Below, in pieces: positions 14,195-29,126 of a stretch of DNA of 64,000 bases. The stretch's first letter is position 1. Each line of letters begins with the position of its first letter. The notes under the pieces were generated by a model, which saw only the letters and a list, made by a program, of their open reading frames with translations, was not told where the DNA came from and searched no databases. The translations under genes were made by a program, and so were the position numbers. The DNA comes from Flavobacterium sp. N2038 (GTDB lineage: Bacteria; Bacteroidota; Bacteroidia; Flavobacteriales; Flavobacteriaceae). The stretch spans positions 3,720,001-3,784,000 of the forward strand of contig NZ_CP110001.1 of the NCBI RefSeq assembly GCF_025947185.1, given 5' to 3'.

Positions 14195-15271
14195 TTAGTA
14201 AACTTCCGAAGCTTCTTTCAATTTCTCCATATTATTTACCAATTGTAACTCGGCAACAATTTTCTGGATATCACCATTCATGATGTTTCCTAGATCGTAA
14301 AGTGTTAAACCAACTCTGTGATCTGTTACACGACCCTGAGCGTAGTTGTATGTACGAATCTTAGCCGAACGGTCACCAGAACTTACCTGAGAAGTACGTT
14401 TTGTAGCATCTTCAGCTTCTTTCTTAGCCAATTCCATTTCGTACAAACGAGAACGTAAAACCGTTAACGCCTTATCTTTATTTTTATGCTGCGATTTCTG
14501 ATCCTGACATTGCGCTACCAATCCTGTTGGAATGTGCGTTAAACGTACAGCAGATTTCGTTGTATTTACCGATTGTCCTCCAGGTCCAGACGAACAGAAG
14601 AAATCTACACGAACATCGTTCATATCGATCTGTACATCAAACTCTTCTGCTTCTGGCAAAACCATAACTGTAGCAGCCGATGTATGCACACGACCTTGCG
14701 TTTCTGTTTGCGGTACACGTTGTACACGGTGTACACCTGCTTCAAATTTCAAAGTTCCATATACATCTTCTCCCGAAACCTCAAAGATAACCTCTTTGAA
14801 ACCTCCAGAAGTTCCTTCGTTCATATCTACAACAGAAGTTCTCCAACCCATGCTTTCGCAATATTTGGTATACATTCTAAATAAGTCACCTGCAAAAATA
14901 CTCGCTTCATCTCCACCCGTTCCCGCGCGAATCTCCACCATTACGTTTTTAGCATCTTCAGGATCTTTAGGAATCAACATAAATTTGATTTCCTCCTCTA
15001 GTTGAGGCAAGCGTTCTTTTGCTTCGTCAAGCTGCATTTTGGCCATTTCGGTCATATCTGCATCGCTTCCGTCAGCAATAATTTCGTTTGCTTCGTCAAT
15101 ATTTGCTAAAACAAGAATGTATTCTTCTCTCTTTTCAACCAGTGCTTTAATACTTTTGTATTCCTGGTTAAGCTGCACATAACGTTTTTGATCAGCAATA
15201 ACATCCGGCTGAATAATCAAATCCGAAATCTCATCAAAACGCTGCTTTACATATTGAAGTCTATCTAACAT
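14195..15271 (-). CDS. prfA: Peptide chain release factor 1
   Basis: Recognises UAA and UAG stop codons in the ribosome and releases the peptide. The 358 residues are full length. The catalytic GGQ lies at 231-233 ([20 protein letters not shown]). The stop-codon-reading tripeptide is PQT at 187-189 ([15 protein letters not shown]), a PxT variant, instead of the PAT of Escherichia coli. The N-terminal coiled part (about 1-100) is present. Stand-alone gene with repeats on both sides and no prmC next to it. Confidence 0.97.
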
Positions 15272-15380
15272 TTTCTAATTCCTTTTATTGGACTGCAAAA
15301 TTACAAAATTTTTGTGGAAAATTCTAGTGGTTATTTTTTGGGAATTTTGAGGATGAAATTTAGTGAAATTAGGATGGTTT

Positions 15381-15482
15381 TTAGGAGCTGTTTCCTGCTA
15401 TTCGCTACAATCTTTTGTGCCTCCCGATAGCTATCGGGGCGGACACAAAAGGATTTTCACTTCTATCAGGGCTAGGACAATC
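15381..15482. repeat. GGAGCTGTTTCCTGCTATTCG repeat element with palindromic centre
   Basis: The region runs from GGAGCTGTTTCCTGC through CAATCTTTTGTG, the palindrome CCCGATAGCTATCGGG (15424-15439), the complementary CACAAAAGGATT and ends TATCAGGGCTAGGAC. It is a hairpin-forming element widespread in flavobacterial intergenic DNA. The rest of 15272-15706 is AT-rich with no gene seen. Confidence 0.6.
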
Positions 15483-15706
15483 GTTTTTAGAATTTCGTTT
15501 ACGGTTTTCCGTAATGCATTTAAATTTTAAGACCTTATTTTTAACAAAACAAAAATCAGGTGTTTTTACTTATAAATTAGTTTGAATTAAAAACGATGTT
15601 TGTTTTTCTAATTTTTAATTTCTCTTTAAAACGATTATTCAAACAAAACTCATTTAAATAAAATTAAAATCATGACAATTTGTATAAATCCAAAAAAAAA
15701 TATTAA

Positions 15707-16366
15707 ATGAAACACATAGCGCCTGCATTAAATTCAAAGTCATTTCATTGTCCTCATTGTGGTGTACTAGCTGAACAAACTTGGTCAACTAGAGGTCTAA
15801 ATGCAAGTTACGTCCAAGCATTAGCAAATGGATCTAGTCAAAATAGTTTCTATGAATTAAAAAATACCTTAACTGCAAAATGTAAACATTGTAATCGATT
15901 TTCTTTGTGGCATGAAGAAAAAATGGTTTTTCCTTTAACTGGAAATGTTGAAATGGCTAATTCAGATTTACCCGATGACATTAAAAATGATTATAATGAA
16001 GCTAAAAACATTGTAAACATTTCTCCTCGGGGTGCTGCTGCTTTGCTAAGACTTGCTGTCCAAAAATTATGTATACATCTAGGTGAAAAAGGCACAAATA
16101 TAAATGATGATATAAAGAGTTTAGTAAAAAAAGGATTGCCACAAACGATGCAACAGGCTTTAGATAGCGTTAGGGTTATAGGTAATAATGCCGTTCATCC
16201 TGGAAAAATTGACTTGAATGATGATATTCAAATTGCATATGCTTTATTTGGATTTATAAATATTATTTGTGAAATACTAATTAGTCAACCAAAAAAAGTT
16301 AAAGATTTTTACGAAACTTACATTCCTGAAAATCTTAGAGTTGAAATTGAAAAACGTGATACATAA
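15707..16366 (+). CDS. Zinc-ribbon DUF4145 protein, first gene of a patatin cassette
   Basis: 219 residues. An N-terminal zinc ribbon uses Cys15, Cys18 (FHCPHCGV), Cys59 and Cys62 (AKCKHCNRF). The helical DUF4145 domain spans about 97-190, with RGAAALLRLAVQKLC and the conserved IGNNAVHPG (158-166). DUF4145 is found alone or fused to restriction and other defence proteins, and its biochemical role is not established. The next gene encodes a second DUF4145 protein and the third a patatin phospholipase, all on one strand. The gene starts at an ATG after an AT-rich leader. Function inferred only from context. Confidence 0.8.
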   Translation: MKHIAPALNSKSFHCPHCGVLAEQTWSTRGLNASYVQALANGSSQNSFYELKNTLTAKCKHCNRFSLWHEEKMVFPLTGNVEMANSDLPDDIKNDYNEAKNIVNISPRGAAALLRLAVQKLCIHLGEKGTNINDDIKSLVKKGLPQTMQQALDSVRVIGNNAVHPGKIDLNDDIQIAYALFGFINIICEILISQPKKVKDFYETYIPENLRVEIEKRDT

Positions 16367-16424
16367 TTTTAAAAAAAAGTAAGGTGTTATAAATCATTAT
16401 TATTGATCACAAATCAAATAAAAT

Positions 16425-16991
16425 ATGGCAAATATAGCTTGGACAAATTTATTAAACTTACAATCAAAATCATATACTTGTGGACATTGTGCAAATCCTA
16501 TAGCTGCTCAAACTGGGTTTACAGGTAAAGAATCAAACACTACATCTGCATATATTTACATATGTCATTTTTGCAAAATGCCAACTTTTTTTTATCAAGA
16601 CATTCAAATACCTGGAGCTCAATTTGGTCATCCAGTTAAACATATTCCGGATGCTAATGTTGAAAAATTATACGAAGAAGCGAGGTCGTGTTTTTCTTAC
16701 AATGCATTTACTTCATCTGTAATGTGCTGTCGCAAATTGCTCATGAATATCGCTGTAAGTGAAGGTGCCAAAGAAGGAGATTTTTTTGTAAATTATGTTG
16801 ATTACTTAGAGCAAAACAATTTTATTCCTCCAAAAGGGAAAGCTTGGGTAGAAGCAATTAGAAAAATTGGTAATGAGGCAAATCATAGTATAGAGTTTAA
16901 AAGTCAGGAGGAAGCAAGATTAATTCTCACTTTTGTTGAAATGCTTTTGAAATTTATATACGAAATGCCAGGAATGTTAGGAAATCCATAA
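16425..16991 (+). CDS. Second zinc-ribbon DUF4145 protein
   Basis: 188 residues, a diverged relative of the upstream gene. The zinc ribbon is Cys19, Cys22 (YTCGHCAN) and Cys47, Cys50 (YICHFCKM). The DUF4145-like helices follow from about 80, with SSVMCCRKLLMNIAVSEG in place of the upstream RGAAALLRLAV, and IGNEANHSI (148-156) in place of IGNNAVHPG. The pair thus shares architecture but little sequence, which suggests a heteromeric complex or an old duplication. The stop codon lies only 10 bp before the patatin start, so these two are surely co-transcribed. Confidence 0.75.
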   Translation: MANIAWTNLLNLQSKSYTCGHCANPIAAQTGFTGKESNTTSAYIYICHFCKMPTFFYQDIQIPGAQFGHPVKHIPDANVEKLYEEARSCFSYNAFTSSVMCCRKLLMNIAVSEGAKEGDFFVNYVDYLEQNNFIPPKGKAWVEAIRKIGNEANHSIEFKSQEEARLILTFVEMLLKFIYEMPGMLGNP

Positions 16992-17001
16992 TTCAAAAAA
17001 T

Positions 17002-18015
17002 ATGAAACAAAAAAAGACATTTAAAGTTTTGAGTATTGATGGAGGCGGAATTAAAGGACTTTATTCAGCTACAATTTTAAATAAAATCGAGAAAGATCTT
17101 ATAAAGAAAACGAACGATAAAACTGTGCGAATAGTTGACTATTTTGATCTAATTTGCGGAACCTCTACTGGAGGATTAATTGCTTTAGCATTGTCATTAG
17201 GCATTTCAACTGATGAAATTTGTAAATTTTACACTAATCATGGTCCGAAAATATTTAGATGGTCAAAAGGAGTTTTTCCAATGCTAAAACAAACCTTATT
17301 TTGGGGAAAATTTAATGATAAGAAACTAAAAAAAGCACTAGTCGAAATTCTTAAAGAAAAAAAAATAGGAGATAGCAGATGTTTACTCTGTATTCCAACT
17401 TTTGACGTAACACATGGTACGTATGAAATTTTCAAATATGATCATAAAGAAGGTCATTTAAGCAGAGATAATGATTTGCTCATGACTGATGTCGCTCTAG
17501 CAACTTCAGCTGCACCGACTTATTTCCCTGTTGCTCAATTGGAAAAACATGATAATAGGCAATATATTGATGGTGGCATTTGGGCAAATAATCCTTCCCT
17601 AATTGGTTATACTGAAGCAAAAAAGTATTTTATCGGTGATGGAAAATATAACAACATACAATTATTATCGTTATCAAGCTTAAACATAGGCAATAAATTA
17701 AAACCTTTCGCTCGTAAAAGAAGATCATTTATTGGTTGGCGCTCCCGTTTGTTTGATTTAACCTTAGTTGCTCAAAGTGAATTTGTAGACCTTTTTCTTA
17801 GTTCTTTACATTCAGAAAGAGCAGACTTAGACTATTATAGGATTAATAGTGCTAAAGTAGAATCTTCACATGTTAAACACATCGAATTAGATAGGGCAAA
17901 AAAAAATTCTATAGCTTTAATGAAACAATTTGGCAATGATATGTATCATAACATAAAGCATGATATTAAGCCATTTTTCCAAACAAGAAAAACATATATT
18001 ACCAAAAATAGATAA
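17002..18015 (+). CDS. Patatin-like phospholipase (CapV-type)
   Basis: Predicted lipid acyl hydrolase of 337 residues. The oxyanion glycine loop GGGIKG is at 14-19, the nucleophile is Ser55 in GTSTGG (53-58), and the catalytic Asp is Asp190 in YIDGGIWANNPS. It resembles the patatin effectors of CBASS (CapV), which degrade membranes when activated by a cyclic nucleotide. However, no nucleotide cyclase, HORMA or TRIP13-like gene lies nearby. The partners here are two DUF4145 zinc-ribbon proteins. A membrane-damaging effector controlled by the DUF4145 pair is the obvious hypothesis. No signal peptide, so cytoplasmic. Confidence 0.85.
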   Translation: MKQKKTFKVLSIDGGGIKGLYSATILNKIEKDLIKKTNDKTVRIVDYFDLICGTSTGGLIALALSLGISTDEICKFYTNHGPKIFRWSKGVFPMLKQTLFWGKFNDKKLKKALVEILKEKKIGDSRCLLCIPTFDVTHGTYEIFKYDHKEGHLSRDNDLLMTDVALATSAAPTYFPVAQLEKHDNRQYIDGGIWANNPSLIGYTEAKKYFIGDGKYNNIQLLSLSSLNIGNKLKPFARKRRSFIGWRSRLFDLTLVAQSEFVDLFLSSLHSERADLDYYRINSAKVESSHVKHIELDRAKKNSIALMKQFGNDMYHNIKHDIKPFFQTRKTYITKNR

Positions 18016-18072
18016 ATATCAATTTGTCGATTTATATATCTGAAAAATAAACAAAAATAATATGCTATAAAC

Positions 18073-18166
18073 CTATCGCTGTACGAAGTCTCCGCTCTTC
18101 AAAGTCTTCCCTTTATCGCGATCGCTGTGCGAAGTTTCCCGACTTCACTTACGGCTTCCCGTAAGG
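18073..18166. repeat. TATCGCGATCGCTGTGCGAAG repeat (copy 1)
   Basis: ATCGCTGTACGAAGTCTCCGC, TTTATCGCGATCGCTGTGCG and CCCGACTTCACTTACGG form a repeat much richer in GC than its surroundings. A copy lies at 19463-19537. It separates the patatin cassette from the next orphan gene. Confidence 0.6.
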
Positions 18167-18241
18167 AAATTGAACTTAAAAAGATTATGTTTGAAAAAAA
18201 AACATTTAACCCTAAACAAGCAAATAACTAAAACCTCTGAA

Positions 18242-18850
18242 ATGCATAAAATTTGGAAATTAAAAGACTCAAAATCCAATAATCAGATAGTAGTAATAAA
18301 GGACAACATCATCTATAAAGGAAATCTAAAAGAAAATGAACTGAATCGTGTCAATTCAGAAACTCAAGATTTTGCGTTTTTAAAAGATTTATTTAGTATT
18401 CCATATGCTTACATCAAGCAAATTGAAAATCAAAACGAAAAAAACTATATTAAAATATTCTTCGGAAGGGATTCTGAAGAAATAATTTATATAGATAGTG
18501 AAAATATTAAAAATGAAGTTTTTGATTTTATAAAAATCGATAACCCAAATTTTAAATATAGTTCTGAAACTCCAAATTCTATAAGCTATGCAAAAGCACA
18601 GCTTTTTGCATTATTATCTATTTCAGCTATTTTTATCTGGTCACTATATTTAGCCATCCAGATTGAAAGCGGTGTACGATATGAACTCGTTGGCGGTGGA
18701 AATCCGGGTATTACAGGAATTGTACTTGCAATCGCAAATTTTGGCACAATCAAAATAATAACAGGATATATAATCCTCTTGTCGATCACTATATTTGCCC
18801 TGATAAGACGGTTAAAATCAAGAAGTGAAATTAAACTTCTCAAAAGGTAA
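18242..18850 (+). CDS. Unknown membrane protein with soluble N-terminal domain
   Basis: 202 residues counted from the ATG at 18242. The frame is open further upstream to a TTG, but that part reads from repeat DNA. Residues 1-115 are soluble, beta-rich and lysine-rich, resembling a PH-like fold (HKIWKLKDSKSNNQIVVIKDN). Two to three transmembrane helices follow (about 122-144 and 155-190) and the end is basic. Orphan gene bracketed by GC-rich repeats. No family recognised. Confidence 0.55.
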   Translation: MHKIWKLKDSKSNNQIVVIKDNIIYKGNLKENELNRVNSETQDFAFLKDLFSIPYAYIKQIENQNEKNYIKIFFGRDSEEIIYIDSENIKNEVFDFIKIDNPNFKYSSETPNSISYAKAQLFALLSISAIFIWSLYLAIQIESGVRYELVGGGNPGITGIVLAIANFGTIKIITGYIILLSITIFALIRRLKSRSEIKLLKR

Positions 18851-18867
18851 ACAAGCCTTTAAAGTCA

Positions 18868-18910
18868 GCCCCACGCTGGCGCGAGCGTCCGCTCGTGAAC
18901 GCAATCTAAA
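18868..18910. repeat. GC-rich GCTGGCGCGAGCGT repeat (copy 1)
   Basis: CACGCTGGCGCGAGCGTCC then GCTCGTGAACGCAATC, containing the inverted pair GCGAGCG/CGCTCG. Copies lie at 21219-21261, 22901-22943 and 23361-23403. Confidence 0.75.
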
Positions 18911-18942
18911 TAAAACCAAAGTATTGTATATCTCTTTTTTCT

Positions 18943-19446
18943 ATGAAAAATATCTTTTACCTCATAATTTTTGCAACTTTTAGTAGCTGTAATTTATTTA
19001 ACAATTACACTCCACAGGATTTAACAAAAAAACCTGAACTAAAAGAACTAATTGGAGAATGGAAGCTTGATTTAGCAAGTTACAATGCAATGATGCACTA
19101 TGGTTATAAGTGTAATGAGGTTAAATTAACATTATATGAAAATGGAAGTTTTGAAGTCGTGAATTTTCCCAATGTAATGAATAAGGTAACTAAAGAACAA
19201 TACGCAGATTGCCAATCAATTGATGGAACATGGAGTTTAGAAAAAAGGTTTTCTAAAGAGAAATGGGGCGTACTTTTAAAATTTGACAAATATCAAATTT
19301 ACGGAGAAAACAACTTGATTATTTTCGAAGTATTAATGGAAAATAAAAAACTAATTTTAAGAAACTCTTTTTTAGATTACAAAGATTTAGATTCAGAGGA
19401 AAGATTACAATTTTTTAAGATAGAACATCATGATTCTTCGAAATAA
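18943..19446 (+). CDS. Predicted lipoprotein, lipocalin-like
   Basis: 167 residues with a lipoprotein signal: MKNIFYLIIFATFSSC, Cys16 lipidated. The mature part begins with ELIGEWKLD and is beta-rich, with the GTWSLEKRF and LKFDKYQIYGENNLIIFEV strands. This resembles small lipocalin-like domains of Bacteroidetes envelope proteins. Function unknown. Orphan gene in the repeat-separated zone. Confidence 0.6.
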   Translation: MKNIFYLIIFATFSSCNLFNNYTPQDLTKKPELKELIGEWKLDLASYNAMMHYGYKCNEVKLTLYENGSFEVVNFPNVMNKVTKEQYADCQSIDGTWSLEKRFSKEKWGVLLKFDKYQIYGENNLIIFEVLMENKKLILRNSFLDYKDLDSEERLQFFKIEHHDSSK

Positions 19447-19462
19447 TTTCTTCTTCTGGTGG

Positions 19463-19537
19463 TGCAAATACCCCCGCTCTCCGAAGTGTGCCCATTATCG
19501 CGATCGCTGTGCGAAGTCTCCCGACTTCGCACCCATT
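19463..19537. repeat. TATCGCGATCGCTGTGCGAAG repeat (copy 2)
   Basis: GCTCTCCGAAGTGTGCCC, TTATCGCGATCGCTGTGCGA and CTCCCGACTTCGCACCC, closely matching 18073-18166. Includes the inverted pair GTGCGAAGTC/GACTTCGCAC. Confidence 0.65.
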
Positions 19538-19646
19538 CCAATGATCTACAAAGAGACGTAAATAATATTTGGAATAAAATATAACAACGGGCGTGAATCT
19601 CAGGAAACTTTGCACAGTACAAAGAGATGACACAAACTAATTAAAA

Positions 19647-20117
19647 ATGGATTTAGAAAAATTAAAAAAAAATGTTGGAATAATTTCTGCAATTATATTG
19701 TTATCTTCTTTTATGTTTTTTATATTTTTAATTGTTGAAGGACAAATTATTAATAAAGATATTAGATTGAATGGTAAATCATCTATTGGGCGATTTGTTT
19801 CGCGCGAAAAAATAAAAAACGGTTATAAAAATTATTTTATCTACGACATAAATGGTGTGAAATTTAAAGGTATTGCAGGCTGGAATGGCTCTGAGGATTT
19901 AGATTCAAATATTGGAAAATTTTATAGAATTCGTTATTCTAAAAAATTTAAAGGTAGTTTTGATGCTGACTTTAATCAGGAAGTTACTGATACAACTGAT
20001 ATTATGAATGCTGGATTTACTTTAAATCGAATTCTAGGAAATGATACTATAAAACCAAAAGAACGCTCATTTAAAGAAGAAGTGTTTATAATTATTGGCA
20101 TTACATCTAATCACTAA
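19647..20117 (+). CDS. Unknown single-pass membrane protein
   Basis: 156 residues, with one N-terminal transmembrane helix (about 10-31, VGIISAIILLSSFMFFIFLIV) and a beta-rich soluble domain with SIGRFVSREKIKNGYKNYFIYDINGVKFKG, resembling DUF3592-like envelope domains. The last residues end only 7 bp before an inverted-repeat element at 20125, so the C-terminus may have been altered by it. Orphan gene, function unknown. Confidence 0.5.
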   Translation: MDLEKLKKNVGIISAIILLSSFMFFIFLIVEGQIINKDIRLNGKSSIGRFVSREKIKNGYKNYFIYDINGVKFKGIAGWNGSEDLDSNIGKFYRIRYSKKFKGSFDADFNQEVTDTTDIMNAGFTLNRILGNDTIKPKERSFKEEVFIIIGITSNH

Positions 20118-20124
20118 TTAACCC

Positions 20125-20271
20125 GTTAGCGCGGATTTGCAATCCCTGCCCGCAACGGTAAAACGCTTTACAAATCATCAAACAAAAGCTACAAAAATCA
20201 TGTAGCTTTTGTTATATTTACAGAGAGAACAAACCAATCTTTGCAGGCACAGATTGCAAATTTGCGCTAAC
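20125..20271. repeat. 147-bp palindromic element with 20-base ends
   Basis: The left end GTTAGCGCGGATTTGCAATC (20125-20144) and the right end GATTGCAAATTTGCGCTAAC (20252-20271) are inverted with one mismatch. A second hairpin is nested inside, AACAAAAGCTACA (20181-20193) with TGTAGCTTTTGTT (20201-20213). It encodes no credible protein. Confidence 0.75.
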
Positions 20272-20351
20272 GGATGGCAAGGCAGAGAACCTATTGAATT
20301 TGCAGAATTAGATTATTGGCAGGAAAAGTAAAAGAAACTAACAAATTAAAC

Positions 20352-21116
20352 ATGCACGCATTAAATAAAAACAAGAAATCACTAAAAACAAAAATATTTT
20401 CAATTTTACTCTTTCACATTGTCCTCAACTTTGCATATTCACAAAAGGATTATACCAATTTTGAAAATTTGAATAAAAAAATAAATGTCAAAGATTTTTT
20501 TCTTGTAAATTTTGTAGATAAAGATTCTACCAAATATTTATTACCAGGTGAGAACAATATTTACAAAACGATAAATGCGAAAGAAACATTTTCCAAATAT
20601 TATGAAACGAGATATGTTTCTATGAAAAACATATCTGTAAGCGAGTTAAATAATCAAATTAATTATACCGATGATGCAGAAAAAATAATTGGAAAAGTAT
20701 TTTCTCTCAACAGATACACGGAAGATGATACCTCTTATTTCTATAAAAATTTAAGATTTAGTCATTTTCAAATGATGTCAGATACTAATAACTTATTATT
20801 AGCTGTTATTTGCTATAATTCAGAAGAAAAAGAAACTAGTTATGAAAAATTATTATCAGAACTTAAACTAAAATTTCATTTTAGTGTAAAAGAAGATGAT
20901 AGAAAAATAAGTACCCTTTTTCAATTAAAAAACTATTTACTAATAATAAACAAAATAAAAACGTCTTATAATAGTGAAAGTTCACCAATGATGCAAACAT
21001 TAGATATGAAAACACCTCGCGTTATTGAAAAAACAATAGATCTTGAAGTAATAATGCAGTTCGACACGCTAAATAATGACCAACAAAAATGGATTAATGA
21101 TTTACAAGAATATTAA
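20352..21116 (+). CDS. Unknown exported protein
   Basis: 254 residues from the ATG at 20352, which gives a signal peptide (basic start, hydrophobic IFSILLFHIVLNFA, cleavage near YSQ). An in-frame upstream start at 20316 adds 12 residues without benefit. The mature part is charged, with DFFLVNFVDKDSTKYLL and a C-terminal EVIMQFDTLNNDQQKWINDL. No family was recognised. Orphan gene in the variable zone. Confidence 0.55.
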   Translation: MHALNKNKKSLKTKIFSILLFHIVLNFAYSQKDYTNFENLNKKINVKDFFLVNFVDKDSTKYLLPGENNIYKTINAKETFSKYYETRYVSMKNISVSELNNQINYTDDAEKIIGKVFSLNRYTEDDTSYFYKNLRFSHFQMMSDTNNLLLAVICYNSEEKETSYEKLLSELKLKFHFSVKEDDRKISTLFQLKNYLLIINKIKTSYNSESSPMMQTLDMKTPRVIEKTIDLEVIMQFDTLNNDQQKWINDLQEY

Positions 21117-21159
21117 AAAAACTGCGATCCGATAGCGCAACATAACTCAATAAAATTAA

Positions 21160-21246
21160 ATGAAACTACTTTCTATTTTCTTTTTTATTTTTCTTTTCAA
21201 CTTTTCGTATTCACAAACTCTGCTGGCGCGAGCGCCCCGCTCGTGA
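21160..21246 (+). pseudogene. Secreted-protein gene cut off after its signal peptide by a GC-rich repeat
   Basis: An ATG at 21160 opens a clean Bacteroidetes signal peptide, MKLLSIFFFIFLFNFSYSQ, and the next codons read directly into the GCTGGCGCGAGCG repeat, giving TLLARAPRS and a stop at 21244-21246. No continuation was recognised downstream. The gene was probably truncated by insertion of the repeat or joined to it by deletion. Confidence 0.6.
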
Positions 21247-21261
21247 ACGCAATTTAAATCA
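21219..21261. repeat. GC-rich GCTGGCGCGAGCG repeat (copy 2)
   Basis: CTGCTGGCGCGAGCGCCCC then GCTCGTGAACGCAATTTAAA. It interrupts the signal-peptide remnant, and a partial inverted copy (GGGCACGAGCTGGACGCTCG) follows at 21279-21306. Confidence 0.75.
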
Positions 21262-21343
21262 ATTTTAAAAAACTATACGGGCACGAGCTGGACGCTCGCG
21301 CTAACAGAAAAAAAATAGACTAAAAAACTAGCTACTTAAAAAA

Positions 21344-21781
21344 ATGAATAAAATTGTATTTAGATTTTGGATAATTAATTTTCTGATAAGCATTTCATTA
21401 TTTTTTATTTATAGAATTGTGATTTCAGAAACAACGGTAATTGCTGGAAATTTCTTTGTACAATTTTTACAGATTTTAGATTTCATAATAAATCTAGGTT
21501 TTTCTGCTGCATATTTTATTGCGATGATTATCTCTTCGTTTGCAATTTTTCTAAATTTAATAGCAAAAATCAGGAATAATTTCTATTGGTCACTTTTAGC
21601 CTTTTTAGGAATACCAACATTTTGTGTCCTTTTTATCGTTATTAATCTATTGATCGATACTTACTTACACAATTTAACTATTTTGACAAGGCTTGCCATT
21701 TTTTCAATAATTTATCTATTTCTTACTACAATAGAATTTTTATTATTCAGAAAAAGAATCAACAAACTAAAAACTGAATAA
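21344..21781 (+). CDS. Unknown polytopic membrane protein
   Basis: 145 residues, almost wholly hydrophobic, with about four transmembrane helices (9-27, 34-60, 75-95, 105-130) and a basic end FRKRINKLKTE. No family recognised. Orphan gene followed by a palindrome variant at 21819-21838. Confidence 0.55.
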   Translation: MNKIVFRFWIINFLISISLFFIYRIVISETTVIAGNFFVQFLQILDFIINLGFSAAYFIAMIISSFAIFLNLIAKIRNNFYWSLLAFLGIPTFCVLFIVINLLIDTYLHNLTILTRLAIFSIIYLFLTTIEFLLFRKRINKLKTE

Positions 21782-21818
21782 ACAAAATTATCCTGCTCTG
21801 CAAAGAGCCCATAATTTA

Positions 21819-21838
21819 ATCCTGAAAGCTTTCGGGAT
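21819..21838. repeat. Palindrome variant ATCCTGAAAGCTTTCGGGAT
   Basis: Relative of the ATCCCGATAGCTATCGGGAT palindrome with an AAAGCTTT centre and one mismatch, placed between convergent genes. Confidence 0.55.
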
Positions 21839-21852
21839 TGCGCTTCTTCTTT

Positions 21853-22188
21853 TTATAGCAATGCCTCCTGTTGAAATTTACACAAATCATCCAACAACTC
21901 CATTTCATCTTCTGGCAATAACTGCAAGGCAATTTCAAGCAAAGTCATAACATTGACCTTATTGTTTTTTGTAAAACCCGACAAACTTTGCGCGTCAGGA
22001 TTAAGCAAAATAATACTTGCTTTTAGCAAATCTGAAACCATTAGATTTAATTCGTTATAAGAAGATACTTTTAGCGGTATTGTAAACGAGTTGGTTTCTT
22101 TTGGCTCTGGCTTTAGTTTGGTAAAATATCTTCCTTTATTTATTAATTCTAACAATTCTTCGGCTCTTTCTTTATTTTGCGTTTCCAT
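21853..22188 (-). CDS. Unknown small soluble protein
   Basis: 111 residues, acidic, predicted helical, with no signal or membrane segment. Recognisable words are ELLELINKGRYFTKLKPEPKE and MTLLEIALQLLPEDEMELLDDL. It lies divergent to the XRE regulator gene, 112 bp apart, so the two promoters share that interval. No family recognised. Confidence 0.55.
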   Translation of the reverse strand: METQNKERAEELLELINKGRYFTKLKPEPKETNSFTIPLKVSSYNELNLMVSDLLKASIILLNPDAQSLSGFTKNNKVNVMTLLEIALQLLPEDEMELLDDLCKFQQEALL

Positions 22189-22300
22189 TTTTATATAAGA
22201 TTTAATTTACAATTTTAAGCAAATATATAAAAAATCAGTAACATACAACCCCTTATTTACATTCACTTAAAAACAATCGATTACTTGTAATTTCATTTCT

Positions 22301-22537
22301 ATGAAAAGAGAAAGAAAAAGTGAAATTCCAGAGGTTGTAAAAGACTTAGGAATCAAGATTAAAGATATAATTGAAGAAAAGAAATTCAAGCGACGAGAGG
22401 TTGCTCATGATGCAGAAATGGATGTTGAAAGTCTAAGAAAATATATAAAAGGCTCGCAAGAAATGAAAGTAAGCACTTTGTTTAAAATTGCACAAGCTTT
22501 AAAAATTCATCCAAGTGAATTAATTAAGGATTTGTAA
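22301..22537 (+). CDS. XRE-family helix-turn-helix regulator
   Basis: 78 residues, essentially one HTH_3 domain: LGIKIKDIIEEKKFKRREVAHDAEMDVESLRKYIKGSQEMKVSTLFKIAQALKIHPSELI. Probable transcription regulator without ligand domain. Its stop codon overlaps the start of the next gene by one base (TAATG), so it is translationally coupled to a lipoprotein gene. Confidence 0.85.
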   Translation: MKRERKSEIPEVVKDLGIKIKDIIEEKKFKRREVAHDAEMDVESLRKYIKGSQEMKVSTLFKIAQALKIHPSELIKDL

Positions 22538-22866
22538 TGAAAAAGAAATTCTTATTTACAACAATCATTATTCTTTTGGGAATATGTTTTTCCTTAAATT
22601 CTTGCAAAGAAAAAGATAAAAACGAAATTAAAATTACAGAAAGCCAGGCTTTAAAAATTGCCAAACGGTACGGCATTTCAGGAGATAATGTAGAGATATT
22701 TTTTAAAACCTATAACTACTCAAAAACCAGTTTAGGATATCAAAAAGGAAAAAGAAAATTGTATTACTGGGATGTTTCTAAAAAATGCAATCATTGTCCA
22801 TTTATACAAATTGATGCGGTCACAGGGAATGTATTTTCTGAGGGTAAATACAATTACGTATATTAA
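22537..22866 (+). CDS. Small lipoprotein, PepSY-like, coupled to an XRE regulator
   Basis: 109 residues with the lipoprotein signal MKKKFLFTTIIILLG then LNSC. The mature domain reads ITESQALKIAKRYGISGDNVEIFF and KKLYYWDVSKKCNHCPFIQIDAVTGNVFSEGKY, a PepSY-like plan (helix, strands, and a DAVTGNV hairpin), with a CNHC pair. The one-base overlap with the regulator suggests that the two products are made together. Function unknown. Confidence 0.6.
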   Translation: MKKKFLFTTIIILLGICFSLNSCKEKDKNEIKITESQALKIAKRYGISGDNVEIFFKTYNYSKTSLGYQKGKRKLYYWDVSKKCNHCPFIQIDAVTGNVFSEGKYNYVY

Positions 22867-22900
22867 AATATGAAAAATAACATTTAAAATAAAACCCGAT

Positions 22901-22943
22901 AGCCCCCGCTAGCACGAGCGTCTCGCTCGTGCACGCAATCTTC
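22901..22943. repeat. GC-rich GCTAGCACGAGCGT repeat (copy 3)
   Basis: CCCGCTAGCACGAGCGTCTC then GCTCGTGCACGCAATC. Diverged member of the family at 18868, 21219 and 23361. Confidence 0.7.
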
Positions 22944-22960
22944 ACAAATTGAATACACTC

Positions 22961-23356
22961 ATGAATAATGTACTAATGAAAATAGAAATTAATAAAAAGT
23001 ATCTGTCAAGTTTAATCGCAAATACTGATCTTCATGCAGGTGGTTTGTTTTTTTGTATAATCTACCAAAATCAACTGGAGTTCTTTAAGAATGGTAAAGT
23101 TGAGCTAACAAAAAAGGTCGTTGATGCCTTTCGTCCTATGGATGAGCACGATATTGAACATTTACAAAATTATAAGATTGTTGGAGACTACTCATTTAAT
23201 GATAGAGGATATTTGGTTTGTAAGTTTGAAGATTTGTTTTGGACATTTACCGGATTGTCTACCGAAAAAGATAGTTCAATTATTCCCTTTAACATTTATG
23301 ATAGCCGCTTACTAAATAGATGGGGAGAAGTTTATAAACTTGAAGAAATTATTTAG
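22961..23356 (+). CDS. Unknown small protein
   Basis: 131 residues from ATG at 22961. ATG at 22976 is also possible (MKIEINKKYLSSLI). Soluble, with FFCIIYQNQLEFFKNGKVELTKKVVDAF and YSFNDRGYLVCKFEDLFWTFTG. No family was recognised, though the pattern resembles small single-domain proteins encoded in toxin-immunity zones. It is flanked on both sides by the GC-rich repeat. Confidence 0.5.
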   Translation: MNNVLMKIEINKKYLSSLIANTDLHAGGLFFCIIYQNQLEFFKNGKVELTKKVVDAFRPMDEHDIEHLQNYKIVGDYSFNDRGYLVCKFEDLFWTFTGLSTEKDSSIIPFNIYDSRLLNRWGEVYKLEEII

Positions 23357-23360
23357 TGAC

Positions 23361-23403
23361 AACCCTGAGCTGGCGCGAGCGTCCCGCTCGTGAACGCAAT
23401 CTA
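23361..23403. repeat. GC-rich GCTGGCGCGAGCGT repeat (copy 4)
   Basis: GAGCTGGCGCGAGCGTCCC then GCTCGTGAACGCAATC, nearly the same as copy 1. Confidence 0.75.
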
Positions 23404-23438
23404 CTTAGGAAGTTTATTTTCTCATTCTATTTCCTTCT

Positions 23439-23577
23439 AGTTTTGTCATTTCGAGGAACGAGACCCGAGCGTTAGCGAATTGGCGAAGCAAATCGCACTA
23501 GAAACTCCGCAAAGAATACTTGCCAATCTTTGTAGACATACGAGTGTGATTTCTCCTTACGTCGAAATGACAAAACT
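23439..23577. repeat. 139-bp element with perfect 16-bp inverted ends
   Basis: AGTTTTGTCATTTCGA (23439-23454) and TCGAAATGACAAAACT (23562-23577) are exact inverted repeats. Between them lie AACGAGACCCGAGCGTTAGC and GTGTGATTTCTCCTTACG. It matches the GTCATTTCGA element common in Bacteroidetes intergenic DNA. No ORF; size and ends are MITE-like. Confidence 0.75.
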
Positions 23578-23680
23578 GTGCAGATAGGTAAAAACCAACC
23601 CTCATTAAATCAGTATTTTAGTAAGAAATTTATATATTTGGTCGTACCAAAAACAAATTTACTATCTAAAACCACTATTA

Positions 23681-24505
23681 ATGAAAGGACTTATTAAACT
23701 CGGCCGTTTATTTTACGGTATTGGCATAATTACTTTGGGAGTGCATCAGCTTATTATCAAAGATTTTCGATCTGAAATTTTATCTCCTTTTCCCGCTTGG
23801 GCGCATCAATATCCTGTTTTTTCTATCCTTACCAGCATAGTTTTAATATTGGCAGGAATTATTATTTCGGGAATCATTACAATTAAATTTATCGATACCA
23901 AAAAAGTCTGTCTTTATTTGGGTTTTGCTTTTCTTGCCGCTTTTATTGTTTCTCATTTGCCCTTTATTTTCATTTTTAATACCGATAAAACTGCCGCCAC
24001 GCAAATTTGGATCAATGCTATTGAGGAAATAACTTATAGCGGTGGAGCATTTGTATTGGCTGGTTCTTTTACAGAACAAGAGTCTAACAAAGATCAAAAC
24101 AAATTCGACGCATTTCTTGAAAAACTTATTCCGGTTGGGCGAATTTTTTATTCGCTTTTAATGCTTTTGTTTGGATTAAGTCATTTTCTTTTTGCCGAGT
24201 TTGTGTCTACAATGGTTCCAAAATGGCTGCCAGGAACTATGTTTTGGACTTATTTTGTAGGTGTTGCGCTTATTTGTTCAGGCATTTCGATTATTTTCAA
24301 GCTTTGGATAAAACCAATTTCGCTTCTTCTTGCTTTAATGCTTTTACTTTTTGTACTTTTCTTCCATATTCAAGATGCTATTGCAAATCCGACTGTGGGT
24401 GGCGGAAATGAAATTGTACGTGCCATTATTGCTTTACTCTTCTGTGGTATTGCATTGGTAATTGCATTAACGAACGATTCTAAAAAAGAGCTTGCAATTA
24501 GCTGA
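23681..24505 (+). CDS. DoxX-like integral membrane protein
   Basis: 274 residues with about eight hydrophobic segments in two similar halves, each with a GRxFYxxxxxxxGxxHxxxxxF pattern (residues 8-29, GRLFYGIGIITLGVHQLI, and about 153-172, GRIFYSLLMLLFGLSHFLFA). This is an internally duplicated DoxX-like architecture. A role in thiol or redox membrane chemistry is suggested for some DoxX proteins but is not shown here. A TATATTTG promoter box lies near 23634. Confidence 0.7.
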   Translation: MKGLIKLGRLFYGIGIITLGVHQLIIKDFRSEILSPFPAWAHQYPVFSILTSIVLILAGIIISGIITIKFIDTKKVCLYLGFAFLAAFIVSHLPFIFIFNTDKTAATQIWINAIEEITYSGGAFVLAGSFTEQESNKDQNKFDAFLEKLIPVGRIFYSLLMLLFGLSHFLFAEFVSTMVPKWLPGTMFWTYFVGVALICSGISIIFKLWIKPISLLLALMLLLFVLFFHIQDAIANPTVGGGNEIVRAIIALLFCGIALVIALTNDSKKELAIS

Positions 24506-24542
24506 ACTTATATCCAAATAAATTTATCCAACCAAAAACACG

Positions 24543-24887
24543 ATGCATAAATTCAACTTCAACAATAAAAGATTTGCACTTATTCAAAATTCGGAAAACG
24601 GACAAGTAAATACAGAAACCATTTTTAATTATAAACAGGACGACAATCTTGTTACTGCCGATTATTTTGGCGGAACCATAAAATATGGAAAAATTATTGC
24701 TGAATTAACCGATGATAAATTAAACATGCTTTATCAATGCTTAACAACGGATAACGAATTGAAAGCTGGAAAAGCATTGGCGCAAATTAAGTTAACAGAA
24801 AATGGAAAAATAAAATTGGCTTTGGATTGGGAATGGCTTAATAATGGAAACGAAAAAGGAAAATCGGAATATATAGAAATTGAATAA
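24543..24887 (+). CDS. Conserved unknown protein (often mislabelled N-acetylglutamate synthase)
   Basis: 114 residues, beta-rich. The pattern NNKRFALIQNSENGQVNTETIFNYKQDDNLVTADYFGGTIKYG is a conserved small family in Bacteroidetes and Firmicutes that databases sometimes call N-acetylglutamate synthase. It has no acetyltransferase fold and no arginine-pathway neighbours here, so that label is not used. It precedes an AHSA1-domain gene by 30 bp. Confidence 0.65.
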   Translation: MHKFNFNNKRFALIQNSENGQVNTETIFNYKQDDNLVTADYFGGTIKYGKIIAELTDDKLNMLYQCLTTDNELKAGKALAQIKLTENGKIKLALDWEWLNNGNEKGKSEYIEIE

Positions 24888-24917
24888 ACAAATTCGTTAA
24901 ACAATAAAAGTTAAACC

Positions 24918-25412
24918 ATGGAAAACTTTGACTGGACTTCTTTTACAAAAAAAATAGCTGTTAAGTCTAAACTCAGCGACATTTACAATGCATGGACAAT
25001 TGCGAATGAACTGGAGAAATGGTTTCTCGAAAAAGTGTCTTTTTTTGATGCGAATATGGAACCCATCAGCAAAGACCAAAGTGTTTCAGAAGGCAATACT
25101 TATGAATGGCTTTGGTATTTGTATAATGACGCCATGAAAGGGAAAATTATGGCTGCCAACGGAAAAGACCAACTACAATTTACTTTTGAAGGAAACTGTC
25201 TGGTAGATATAAAATTGAGTGAAGAAAATGACTATACGATAGTAGAGCTTCATCAGTTTAATATTCCAACAGATGATAATTCGAAACAATACATCAGACT
25301 GGGCTGCTCAAACGGCTGGCATTTTTATCTGACGAATCTTAAATCGGTTTACGAGGGCGGACTGGATTTGCGTAATAAAGATGAGAATTTGAATCCTATG
25401 ATTAATAATTAA
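24918..25412 (+). CDS. SRPBCC/AHSA1 (START-like) domain protein
   Basis: 164 residues forming one START-like domain: VKSKLSDIYNAWTIANELEKWFLEKVSF at the start, then GNTYEWLW, and the closing helix SNGWHFYLTNLKSVYEGGLDLR that is typical of activator-of-Hsp90-like proteins. Binds an unknown hydrophobic ligand in many relatives. Located between two small unknown genes, probably one transcript. Confidence 0.8.
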   Translation: MENFDWTSFTKKIAVKSKLSDIYNAWTIANELEKWFLEKVSFFDANMEPISKDQSVSEGNTYEWLWYLYNDAMKGKIMAANGKDQLQFTFEGNCLVDIKLSEENDYTIVELHQFNIPTDDNSKQYIRLGCSNGWHFYLTNLKSVYEGGLDLRNKDENLNPMINN

Positions 25413-25429
25413 GACAAATACATTTTAAA

Positions 25430-25669
25430 GTGGATTTTGAACAAATAATAGCGGGACGAATTATTTTGGAGTTTTTGGGAGCTTTGGTACGATTTCTTTA
25501 TTTCAATTCAGGAGCTCTTCTAAACGATAATGATTTTAGAACATTTTCGAGTTTCTGGTCACCAAGCGGAAGTAATCAAAAAAAAGATGATAACAGTAAT
25601 CGAAATCATATGATTGGAGTTCTTTTTTTAGGAGGTTTCATCATGTTGATGCTTATTTTTAATACTTAA
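25430..25669 (+). CDS. Small unknown membrane protein with GTG start
   Basis: 79 residues if the GTG at 25430 is used. A stop lies seven codons upstream in frame and no ATG is available in the first third. The C-terminal IGVLFLGGFIMLMLIF is a transmembrane helix, and the middle is hydrophilic (SPSGSNQKKDDNSNRN). Sits 18 bp after the AHSA1 gene. Confidence 0.5.
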   Translation: MDFEQIIAGRIILEFLGALVRFLYFNSGALLNDNDFRTFSSFWSPSGSNQKKDDNSNRNHMIGVLFLGGFIMLMLIFNT

Positions 25670-25803
25670 TTCAAAAGCATTCAATTAAATTTTTACAATT
25701 TCAAAACATAGATTTTATGTCTCAATAATTCCAGTCAATACGCACCACATTTGTGCCCGTAAATAAATTTTACTATTATGTATTACTTACTTTTTTGGCG
25801 AAA

Positions 25804-26595
25804 TTACACCGCAACACACTGCCTATTTTTTTCTTCGATTATCTTTAAATCAATTATTTTTTGAGCAACAGTTCCCTTTTCAAATAATCGAATGAATTTG
25901 AAAACGGCACTAACAAAATACCCCGGATTTGAAACCAGACGGGCAATTTCTGTTATTCTTTTGTCTCTTAGTTGCGTATAGGCTTCTCTTTGATTTTCGG
26001 GAACCAGTACAAATTCATTGGCAAATTTCCATGCTCCCTCCCTTGCGGTTTCCATACTAAAATCAATAAAGAAATTATCTATTTTGCCTGTCAATTTTAG
26101 AATCATCGTGAGCGTTGGCCAAATTTTGATTAAGCATTTTTCTACACTTCCTACCAGACTGCTCAATATGGCATTTATCTTGTCGAAATCTGCTTTTAAG
26201 TCTCCAATATTTTCTGCTGTACTGACCTGAGCGGCTGCTATCCCAAGATCCAGATTGATGTGTGCATTTATTCCAAGTAGCAAATGCTGCACTACTATTG
26301 GCCAGAATTTTTCTGCTTGCTGAAAAGAAAATGCCCAGCTTTCGGATGGTTTTTCCTTGGCTTTATATTGATAATAAGCTTTGATATATCGATTGGCAAA
26401 AATAACATCGAGTTTTTCCATTCGTTCCCCATTTTGAAAAGAACCATCCAGGATTCCTTCTTTTATTCTTACCGTAACTTCACGATACAACATAGCAAAC
26501 AAACCCAGGGCGCTTTGTTCCAGTTTTGATGTCTCGATAATTTCATCCAATATCTGAATTACCTCGTTTATTGTAGTAGCTTCTTTTATCTTCAT
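25804..26595 (-). CDS. DUF5995 family protein
   Basis: 263 residues, helical, no signal. The conserved features LGLFAMLYREVTVRIKEGI, FANRYIKAYY, HLLLGINAHINLDLGIAAA and DFSMETAREGAWKFA mark the DUF5995 family. HINLD suggests a possible His/Asp active or metal site, but no activity is known. Stand-alone gene, divergent from topB. Confidence 0.85.
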   Translation of the reverse strand: MKIKEATTINEVIQILDEIIETSKLEQSALGLFAMLYREVTVRIKEGILDGSFQNGERMEKLDVIFANRYIKAYYQYKAKEKPSESWAFSFQQAEKFWPIVVQHLLLGINAHINLDLGIAAAQVSTAENIGDLKADFDKINAILSSLVGSVEKCLIKIWPTLTMILKLTGKIDNFFIDFSMETAREGAWKFANEFVLVPENQREAYTQLRDKRITEIARLVSNPGYFVSAVFKFIRLFEKGTVAQKIIDLKIIEEKNRQCVAV

Positions 26596-26806
26596 TGTAA
26601 TTGGTTTTGGCTAAGCGAATATACTTATTTTGAAGTAATTATCTTATTTTTTCTTATACTTCGAATCTTAAAAAGAAACACTTTTATCACAATGCCAAAT
26701 ACTACAAAAAACTCCCAATCCTAATCTTTCTAAATAAAATAAAAAAACTTAGTGTCGTGCAACCTTAGCAACTTTCTCATAAAATCCTTAATTTCGCCTA
26801 CTAAAT

Positions 26807-26819
26807 AAGAAGGAGAAAA
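26807..26819 (+). promoter_or_regulatory. Strong Shine-Dalgarno sequence before topB
   Basis: AAGAAGGAG lies at 26807-26815, four bases before the ATG. Such a consensus ribosome-binding site is rare in this window, where most genes have only A-rich leaders. Confidence 0.6.
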
Positions 26820-29126
26820 ATGAAGGTCTGTATTGCCGAAAAACCAAGTGTAGCACGAGAAATCGCATCCGTTTTGGGTGCCAATACCAAGCACGATGGG
26901 TATTATGAAGGCAATGGTTATGCTGTGACCTATACTTTTGGGCATTTATGCACCTTAAAAGAACCCAACGATTACCGTCCGCACTGGAAAAGCTGGGATT
27001 TGAATAATCTGCCTATGCTTCCTGAAAAGTTCGAAACCAAAGTGGTTCAGAATTCGGGAATCCAGAAACAGTTTAAAATCATTAAAAGTCTTTTTGACAA
27101 AGCCGAAGTGGTCATCAACTGCGGGGATGCCGGACAAGAAGGAGAACTGATTCAGCGTTGGGTAATGAACGAAGCGCATTACAAAGGCGAAGTGCAGCGT
27201 TTATGGATTTCGTCCCTGACTACAGAAGCCATCAAAGAAGGTTTTGAAAACTTAAAACCCTCTGAAAACTACGATAATTTATTTTATGCCGGATTTTCCA
27301 GAGCTATTGGCGACTGGTTATTGGGTATGAATGCTACACGTTTATATACGGTAAAACATGGCGGTTACAAGCAGGTTTTGTCTATTGGCCGTGTGCAAAC
27401 ACCAACCCTGGCAATGGTTGTAGATCGTTTTAGAGAGATCGAAAACTTTAAACCTCAACCCTATTGGGAATTACAGACTTTGTACCGGGAAACGCTTTTT
27501 AGTTATGAAGAAGGCCGCTTCCTGAAAAAAGAAGACGGAGAAATTCTGGCCGAAAAAGTAAAAGAAAGTGATTTCGAAATTGTTTCGGTCGATAAAAAAA
27601 ACGGAAACGAATATGCTCCAAAGCTTTTTGACTTAACTGGTTTACAGGTTTATTGCAATCAAAAATTTGGATTTTCGGCAGAAGAAACGCTTAAAATCGC
27701 CCAGACTTTATACGAACAAAAAGTAATCACGTATCCCAGAGTTGATACGACTTTTTTACCTAACGATATTTATCCTAAAGTAACCGGAATTCTGCAAAAA
27801 TTAACCACTTATGCCGAATTAACTCAGCCCATTTTACAGAAAAAAATAAAAAAATCGCCAAAGGTTTTCAACGACAAAAAAGTTACAGATCACCACGCGA
27901 TTATTCCAACCGGAGTTCAAAACAATCTGGCCTACAATCAGCAGCAGGTTTACGACATTATTACAAAACGTTTTATTGCAGTATTTTATGACGATTGTCT
28001 GGTTGCCAATACAACCGTGATTGGAAAAGCAGCGGATGTAACGTTTAAAGCCACGGGAAAAGAAATCCTGAAGAAAGGTTTTCGCATTGTGTTTGAAGAT
28101 CCAAACGCCAAAGAAAAAGAAGCCGATTTATTGCCGAGTTTTGTTGTGGGCGAAAAAGGGCCGCATGAACCTTCGTTTCTTCAAAAAGAAACCAAACCAC
28201 CCAATCAGTTTACAGAAGCTACTTTGCTGCGTGCTATGGAGACCGCAGGAAAACAGGTTGACGATGAAGATTTACGCGAACTTATGAAAGAGAACGGAAT
28301 CGGGCGTCCGTCAACGCGTGCAAATATTATCGAAACGCTTTTTAAACGTCAGTATATTGTTCGAAACAAAAAGCAGGTTTTACCCACCACAACAGGAATT
28401 CAGCTTATTGATACGATTCAGAACGAATTGGTAAAATCAGCTGAACTTACAGGAAGCTGGGAAAAACAACTAAAAGATATCGAGAAAGGAACTTTTACTG
28501 CTGCAGCTTTCATCAGAAACATGAAACGCATGGTTGAAGCTTTGGTTTTTGAAGTTAGAAGCGAAACTAAACACGCCAATATTTCGCATGCCGCAACGAT
28601 ACAGAAACCTGTTGTAAAAGCAGAAAAAAAGAAAGCCGCAGGAATTTTGGCAGAGACTTGTCCGAAATGTCAAAAAGGAAATCTGATCAAAGGTAAAACA
28701 GCTTTTGGATGCAGTGAATACAAATCGGGCTGTGATTTTGTATTACCGAATGTTTTCCAGGAGAAAAAAATCACGGAAAGTCAATATTTAAGATTGGTTC
28801 AAAAAGGCTCAACGGTAAATATAAAAGGCTTTAAAACCGAAGCCGGAACGGTTGAAGGTTTAATTCGTTTTGAAGAAAATTACAAGCTTAAACTGGAGCC
28901 TAAGAAAACTGAAACGAAGAAAGCAAAGCAACAAGAAGCATCAGATTCTTTAATGTGTCCGAAATGCAAAAAAGGAACTATTCTAAAAGGAAAAACCGCT
29001 TATGGCTGCGCTGAATATAAATCGGGTTGTGATTTTAAAGTCACATTTGATGACGTCAGAACCAAACTAAAAGATCAAAAACCAACGAAGGAATTGGTTT
29101 ACTCTATTTTGAAGGAAAGCGTTTAA
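26820..29126 (+). CDS. topB: DNA topoisomerase III (type IA)
   Basis: Type IA topoisomerase that passes single strands and decatenates DNA. 768 residues. The Toprim domain has Glu7 (IAEKPS) and GDAGQEGE at 102-109. The catalytic tyrosine is Tyr305 in ITYPRVDT, and SIGRVQTPTLAMVV (188-201) is the conserved cleft motif. The C-terminus carries two near-identical zinc-ribbon repeats (CPKCQKGN...CSEYKSGCDF and CPKCKKGT...CAEYKSGCDF). This is the Bacteroidetes form that is also common on conjugative elements, but no mobility genes lie nearby. Confidence 0.95.
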   Translation: MKVCIAEKPSVAREIASVLGANTKHDGYYEGNGYAVTYTFGHLCTLKEPNDYRPHWKSWDLNNLPMLPEKFETKVVQNSGIQKQFKIIKSLFDKAEVVINCGDAGQEGELIQRWVMNEAHYKGEVQRLWISSLTTEAIKEGFENLKPSENYDNLFYAGFSRAIGDWLLGMNATRLYTVKHGGYKQVLSIGRVQTPTLAMVVDRFREIENFKPQPYWELQTLYRETLFSYEEGRFLKKEDGEILAEKVKESDFEIVSVDKKNGNEYAPKLFDLTGLQVYCNQKFGFSAEETLKIAQTLYEQKVITYPRVDTTFLPNDIYPKVTGILQKLTTYAELTQPILQKKIKKSPKVFNDKKVTDHHAIIPTGVQNNLAYNQQQVYDIITKRFIAVFYDDCLVANTTVIGKAADVTFKATGKEILKKGFRIVFEDPNAKEKEADLLPSFVVGEKGPHEPSFLQKETKPPNQFTEATLLRAMETAGKQVDDEDLRELMKENGIGRPSTRANIIETLFKRQYIVRNKKQVLPTTTGIQLIDTIQNELVKSAELTGSWEKQLKDIEKGTFTAAAFIRNMKRMVEALVFEVRSETKHANISHAATIQKPVVKAEKKKAAGILAETCPKCQKGNLIKGKTAFGCSEYKSGCDFVLPNVFQEKKITESQYLRLVQKGSTVNIKGFKTEAGTVEGLIRFEENYKLKLEPKKTETKKAKQQEASDSLMCPKCKKGTILKGKTAYGCAEYKSGCDFKVTFDDVRTKLKDQKPTKELVYSILKESV

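Follow-up and report, generated by a model that had tools for sequence, protein, structure and literature searches.

Downstream of prfA, the Flavobacterium sp. N2038 genome carries three genes, lying at a variable site, that we read as an acquired anti-phage cassette in which defence genes are stacked and a RAZR homologue is the best-understood part; we put the probability of this reading at roughly 0.55. The parts are known and the combination is new, with RAZR-type proteins and a predicted CapV-class enzyme occurring together without a cyclase. The cassette shows RAZR homologues in Bacteroidota and opens two questions to direct experiment: can a protein sensor take over from a cyclase, and do CBASS effectors live outside CBASS? 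Should the genes be no more than stacked, the site remains of use as an instance of a hotspot linked to prfA.

The window, the 64,000-nucleotide stretch of contig NZ_CP110001.1 that was analysed, encodes the three genes on one strand (Table 1), with 58 bp between gene 1 and gene 2 and only 10 bp between gene 2 and the patatin gene. Pfam finds DUF4145 in gene 1 (3.5e-17) and gene 2 (7.1e-12) and Patatin in gene 3 (5.7e-27); all of these scores exceed the curated cut-offs, so the domain matches are not due to chance. The initial annotation, made from the sequence without database searches, had described two same-strand DUF4145 genes with CxxC ribbons followed 10 bp later by a patatin. The open reading frames, Pfam matches and motifs agree with that description, including the shared IGNxAxH motif (IGNNAVH in gene 1, IGNEANH in gene 2) and the patatin motifs GGGIKG, GTSTGG with Ser55, and DGG. 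Third-position GC content is 0.15–0.20 in the cassette genes, against 0.28–0.35 for five of the window's other genes and 0.24 in the next gene downstream. A search of positions 15201–18200 for a Bacteroidota-type promoter (TTG-N17-23-TAnnTTTG) gave no match, which leaves the operon structure unproved; a sigma-70 scan returned 19 sites compared with 15.4 in shuffled sequences.

Table 1. Features of the cassette, with positions counted from the first letter of the window.
Feature	Position	Strand	Basis
Gene 1, Zn-ribbon + HEPN (DUF4145), predicted RAZR / PD-T7-4 homologue, 219 aa	15707..16366	+	PADLOC, PDB 9y9c, Pfam
Gene 1 first CxxC (Cys15, Cys18)	15749..15760	+	sequence; invariant in 23 aligned; corresponds to CPHC of 9y9c chain
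Gene 1 second CxxC (Cys59, Cys62)	15881..15892	+	sequence; invariant in 31 aligned; corresponds to CSHC of 9y9c chain
Gene 1 HEPN-type R156..G159N160...H164	16172..16198	+	invariant in 31 aligned; same in 9y9c chain
Gene 2, second Zn-ribbon + HEPN (DUF4145), separate RAZR-like subfamily, 188 aa	16425..16991	+	
Gene 2 first CxxC (Cys19, Cys22)	16479..16490	+	invariant in 43 aligned
Gene 2 second CxxC (Cys47, Cys50)	16563..16574	+	invariant in 43 aligned
Gene 2 HEPN-type R146..G149N150...H154	16860..16886	+	invariant in 43 aligned
Gene 3, predicted CapV-class patatin phospholipase, 337 aa	17002..18015	+	NCBIfam CBASS_lipase, PADLOC, PDB
Patatin oxyanion-hole motif DGGGIKG (GGGIKG, residues 14-19)	17038..17058	+	sequence
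Patatin GTSTGG, nucleophile Ser55	17158..17175	+	sequence; 19 aligned relatives
Patatin DGG (residues 190-192), Asp190	17569..17577	+	sequence; invariant in 19 aligned relatives

RAZR is a self-contained RNase that is turned on by ring-shaped phage proteins and senses portal-like rings. Judged by its sequence, gene 1 is homologous both to PD-T7-4, an anti-phage protein, and to the DUF4145 protein in the PDB entry for RAZR. Its similarity to the PADLOC PD-T7-4 model is full-length (E=7.1e-86, residues 2–219 to model positions 3–208 of 211), and it matches the DUF4145 protein of PDB 9y9c at E=7.8e-59 over residues 8–218. That entry has 24 chains and is titled 'Cryo-EM map of the in vitro reconstituted RAZR:GP77 complex with AlphaFold-predicted models fitted into the density'; we infer that PD-T7-4 and RAZR are the same. 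Gene 1 has the length of the 9y9c chain, 219 aa, with an N-terminal Zn-ribbon of two CxxC pairs and a C-terminal DUF4145/HEPN domain bearing R..GN...H, and all of these residues align between the two, including the HEPN-type R-x7-H spacing. The cysteines and the R..GN...H residues are invariant among 23 aligned sequences; in a wider alignment (n=31), the first CxxC is absent from one row. The structure prediction for gene 1 is poor (pLDDT 58), so its fold rests on its sequence. Unlike RAZR and PD-T7-4, gene 1 is followed in the cassette by another RAZR-like gene and then a patatin gene; for gene 1 itself ring binding and RNase activity are predicted. A HEPN review places DUF4145 in the HEPN superfamily and describes the catalytic motif as conserved in most members (PMC3710099). 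BxaP is another anti-phage protein with a DUF4145 domain; it is BREX-linked and has an N-terminal DUF4145 domain and a HEAT-like C terminus (PMC10799925), unlike the cassette genes.

Gene 2 has the same Zn-ribbon and HEPN layout, with the HEPN fold and the conserved R and H expected of that superfamily, and belongs to another subfamily that is also carried in phage contigs. Its match to PD-T7-4 reaches just 1.2e-7, which makes it a RAZR relative and not a close member, and its CxxC cysteines and R..GN...H residues are invariant among 43 aligned sequences. Members of the gene 2 family lie close to terminase genes in phage or provirus contigs (L078, L079, L080, L083, L084, L088, L093, L094 and L098), a proximity that is noteworthy because RAZR senses portal-like rings.

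CapV-type phospholipases are executioners switched by cyclic nucleotides. Gene 3 is predicted to be a CBASS phospholipase of this class, with intact catalytic motifs in a full-length frame. It scores 318.6 bits against the NCBIfam model for CBASS cGAMP-activated phospholipases (NF041079, CBASS_lipase; cut-off 200), which bears out the likeness to CapV drawn in the initial annotation, and it also matches the PADLOC phospholipase effector model (1.7e-105) and the CapV-type PDB entries 9kh7 (4.5e-45) and 8zr9 (1.7e-33). Across 19 aligned relatives, G53, T54, S55 and G57 are invariant and T56 and G58 nearly so. The protein also retains 80 of the 84 positions that are invariant among ten CD-NTase-linked relatives (nine genus rows plus Gloeocapsa, whose cyclase is known by annotation; the count omits CD_L073_G210, a long-branch row). 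We considered and rejected an identity with the related patatin DS2_1, an anti-phage phospholipase (NF053870), against which gene 3 scores 90.6 bits with a cut-off of 400.

What sets gene 3 apart from CapV is its surroundings: no CD-NTase gene adjoins it and a DUF4145 gene precedes it. At E<=1e-60, the patatin occurs in 11 of 398 genus genomes, ten besides that of the window, and in the nine readable loci of its closest genus relatives the next gene is a CD-NTase according to PADLOC (9/9, leaving aside G168, whose contig ends after the patatin, and G133, at L072, whose patatin lies in two frames); the same holds for the more distant G210. For nine of these ten patatin-linked cyclases, PDLC00774 is the best PADLOC match. 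In a tree of 38 rows, the window patatin falls in a 21-row branch apart from all cyclase-linked rows (support 95/99), although support for this split drops to 89/49 in a second tree with two long rows added and CD_L073_G210 removed. Because the window patatin sits in a branch other than the cyclase-linked ones, recent loss of a cyclase is not the obvious history. Patatins of this branch might share a conserved partner that is not a cyclase; none was seen. On a Gloeothece plasmid (L149:114-2175), a CapV-class phospholipase gene is followed by one for a 5-hmdU DNA kinase helical-domain protein and not by a CD-NTase.

A cyclase defines CBASS, and the genome-wide SMODS scan and the Pfam scan of downstream genes show no CD-NTase linked to the cassette, which rules it out as standard CBASS, in line with the initial annotation. 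The sole match in this genome to SMODS (PF18144), the one cyclase model used in the scan and blind to cyclases outside SMODS, lies 1.1 Mb away. Pfam detected no cyclase in 7 of the 10 downstream open reading frames up to position 24505, and neither HORMA/TRIP13 nor Cap2/Cap3 was found among those seven or the three cassette genes. The earlier statement that cyclase, HORMA and TRIP13 are missing thus holds for the cassette, yet the genome has a type III-like CBASS elsewhere, with CD-NTase, HORMA, TRIP13 and a 2TM effector (C1:2607352-2610581; L074:4353-7582). The cyclase of that system has PDLC00808 as its best PADLOC match, is accompanied by its own 2TM effector, and falls in a different cluster from all ten patatin-linked cyclases tested. 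The cassette resembles type II CBASS (patatin, CD-NTase, Cap2, Cap3) in its class of effector and in the CD-NTases adjoining the closest genus relatives of its patatin, several of which are followed by genes that look like Cap2/Cap3 by eye, and such genes are annotated in Gloeocapsa; it differs in having no cyclase.

Three observations mark the cassette as accessory cargo and its site as variable: its absence from relatives, the differing contents of the site and the low third-position GC content. We opened eight of the 18 same-genus relatives with a prfA match, and all three genes are absent at prfA in 8/8, with both flanks seen in 6/8. The interval between prfA and a 768-aa gene (15271–26820) differs in cargo among these relatives (L136–L143). 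Ten proteins picked from five of these relatives revealed conflict-type domains in four—an AAA_15/NsnB-like ATPase, caspase with Panacea, HSDR_N and PIN—and an HTH protein in the fifth. A core locus fixed in all relatives, which the initial annotation had named as an outcome that would undercut mobility, can therefore be rejected. That annotation was right to place the block beside prfA, but the block is part of the variable zone, not its neighbour, and a search of positions 15000–18600 for the repeats it had described turned up only short ones.

The three genes rarely keep company. Among 249 genus genomes, gene 2 has a strong match in one and matches at E<=0.001 in four, three of them weak; gene 1 is found in eight at E<=1e-10; and the patatin is found in 32 at E<=1e-10, seven of these at E<=1e-60. 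The window genome is the only one listed for gene 1 and for the patatin alike, even at E<=1e-10, and the only one with more than one of a strong gene 2 match, gene 1 and a close patatin, so the triple is not a genus-wide unit. At E<=1e-10, the gene 2 profile matches three of the 397 genomes of the family and four of the 395 of the phylum, the window genome included in each. Gene 1 homologues in the 7/7 other genus genomes have neither gene 2 nor patatin within loci of 5.7–15 kb (a count without L014, a family-level genome in which a 39.5 % identical gene 1 homologue and a further DUF4145 gene stand some 3 kb apart). Gene 1 and patatin are likewise both missing from 31/31 loci of gene 2 homologues, several of which end near the match and some of which are near-duplicate phage loci.

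The full trio is very probably present in one other organism, given the matching contig metadata of three homologues: P0001, P0122 (the patatin) and P0244 share a longest contig of 5834, three contigs and the same sources. Identity to the window proteins is 87 % for gene 1, 87 % for gene 2 and 71 % for the patatin. A close gene 1 homologue (88 %, contig 67685) has no partner on a contig of equal size among the 120 matches listed per gene, nor do the 69 % identical patatins P0123 and P0124 (contigs 286567 and 537633) among the 120 gene 1 and 120 gene 2 matches listed; diverged partners of these close homologues may exist beyond those 120. In the patatin tree, P0122 pairs with P0124 and not with the window patatin. 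By the criterion set in the initial annotation, rare co-occurrence weakens the idea of a unit; the trio recurs in this one probable case.

If the genes are stacked defences, as we favour, the Zn-ribbon part of gene 1 would most likely dock, as in RAZR, on a ring-shaped phage protein; docking would bring the HEPN domains together and set off RNA cleavage, ending phage production in the infected cell as an abortive infection. Gene 2 would be a second ring-sensing RNase, built alike but directed at a phage target of its own, and the patatin, co-transcribed and made from the gene 2 transcript, would supply a further, membrane-damaging arm that has no linked cyclase. This arm may be silent or serve another purpose. 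The mobile defence role proposed in the initial annotation survives, because genes 1 and 3 are separately known kinds of defence gene and the site is variable; the claim that the three form a unit is weakened. The probable recurrence of the same trio would be unexpected were the genes simply stacked.

That recurrence speaks for the strongest competing idea, one integrated three-part system in which the RAZR-like pair is a joint sensor that gates the phospholipase, by contact or through an RNA-cleavage product, and so replaces the CD-NTase and its cyclic nucleotide. The 10-bp gap between gene 2 and the patatin points the same way, as do the lack of a linked cyclase where 9/9 readable close genus relatives have one and the placement of RAZR-type genes beside other cyclase-less effectors, 10 bp from a NucC-like gene in G059 and 5 bp from a CAP12-TIR gene on a Spartinivicinus plasmid. 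Gene 1 and gene 2 nevertheless occur without the others in every comparison locus examined (7/7 and 31/31), P0123 and P0124 have no matching contigs among the matches listed, and P0122 pairs with P0124 and not with the window patatin. We regard integration as a tentative reading, with about one chance in four of being right. The two-part sensor for the phospholipase suggested in the initial annotation is possible in the same sense, but homologues of the pair are mostly apart and the relatives of the patatin pair with CD-NTases; stacking fits better than gating.

Two further readings concern the patatin itself. It could be a spare CBASS effector that answers in trans to the nucleotide of a separate system, the type III-like CBASS at about 2.61 Mb or some other nucleotide signal, and its retention of 80/84 positions would suit such a role. 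The cyclase there, however, is of the PDLC00808 type and is already served by a 2TM effector, whereas PDLC00774 predominates among patatin-linked cyclases, and the two loci are 1.1 Mb apart; we consider the proposal improbable. Slightly less probable still is that the patatin is left over from a broken CBASS operon beside which the DUF4145 genes happened to land, with no joint function and no present-day role for the patatin. Changing cargo at the site and the cyclases of the patatin's genus relatives are compatible with such a relic, but the full-length frame, the intact catalytic residues, the probable second occurrence of the trio (87, 87 and 71 % identity), and the separate branch of the window patatin (95/99; 89/49 in the second tree) speak against it.

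Stacking at the window site can be set beside the company that gene 1 keeps elsewhere. A defence-type gene lies beside the gene 1 homologue or one gene away in five of the seven other genus genomes: an AbiL-like pair, a type IIG R-M system, a NucC-like gene, a second DUF4145 gene and a Schlafen AlbA_2 gene. In each of the remaining two loci, the one neighbour tested gave no match. Same-strand neighbours are found 10–172 bp from the homologue in several genus loci. In G059 (L065:868-2251), a DUF6602/NucC-like nuclease gene, whose product resembles NucC over about its first half only, ends 10 bp before the gene 1 homologue. On the Spartinivicinus plasmid (L162:3120-4624), a 50 % identical homologue begins 5 bp after a CAP12-PCTIR_TIR gene, and on a Planococcus plasmid an annotated TIR gene lies two genes downstream; these plasmid loci are among seven opened of 25 matches, with neighbours judged by annotation. 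SMODS had no match in the G059 genome or on the Spartinivicinus plasmid, and it did match the positive control G046.

Altogether, 3 of 15 gene 1 loci, the window included, lie beside an effector of CBASS or Pycsar type without a cyclase, with gene 2 intervening in the window; we noticed this pattern only in hindsight, and adjacency in defence islands could produce it by chance. A speculative extension, to which we give rather less credence than to integration at this one site, is that RAZR-type Zn-ribbon/HEPN proteins have repeatedly replaced CD-NTases as the trigger of CBASS-type killers (CapV-class, NucC-superfamily and CAP12/Pycsar-type TIR), forming modular systems that would be activated by ring proteins, carry an exchangeable effector and use no cyclic nucleotide.

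Other pairings of DUF4145 genes were also seen. At L018:7562-10720, a distant DUF4145 gene lies near a gene that looks like a CD-NTase and an E2-like gene (both by eye), with transposon-like genes adjoining. A 58 % identical gene 2 homologue (L002:156-1395) is followed after 13 bp by the gene for a protein with probable membrane helices and the motif RNQLVH, HEPN-like by eye and without a Pfam match. In G217 (L061:6949-8542), the gene before the gene 1 homologue encodes a different DUF4145 protein, which itself bears two CxxC pairs; such a tandem arrangement thus occurs a second time.
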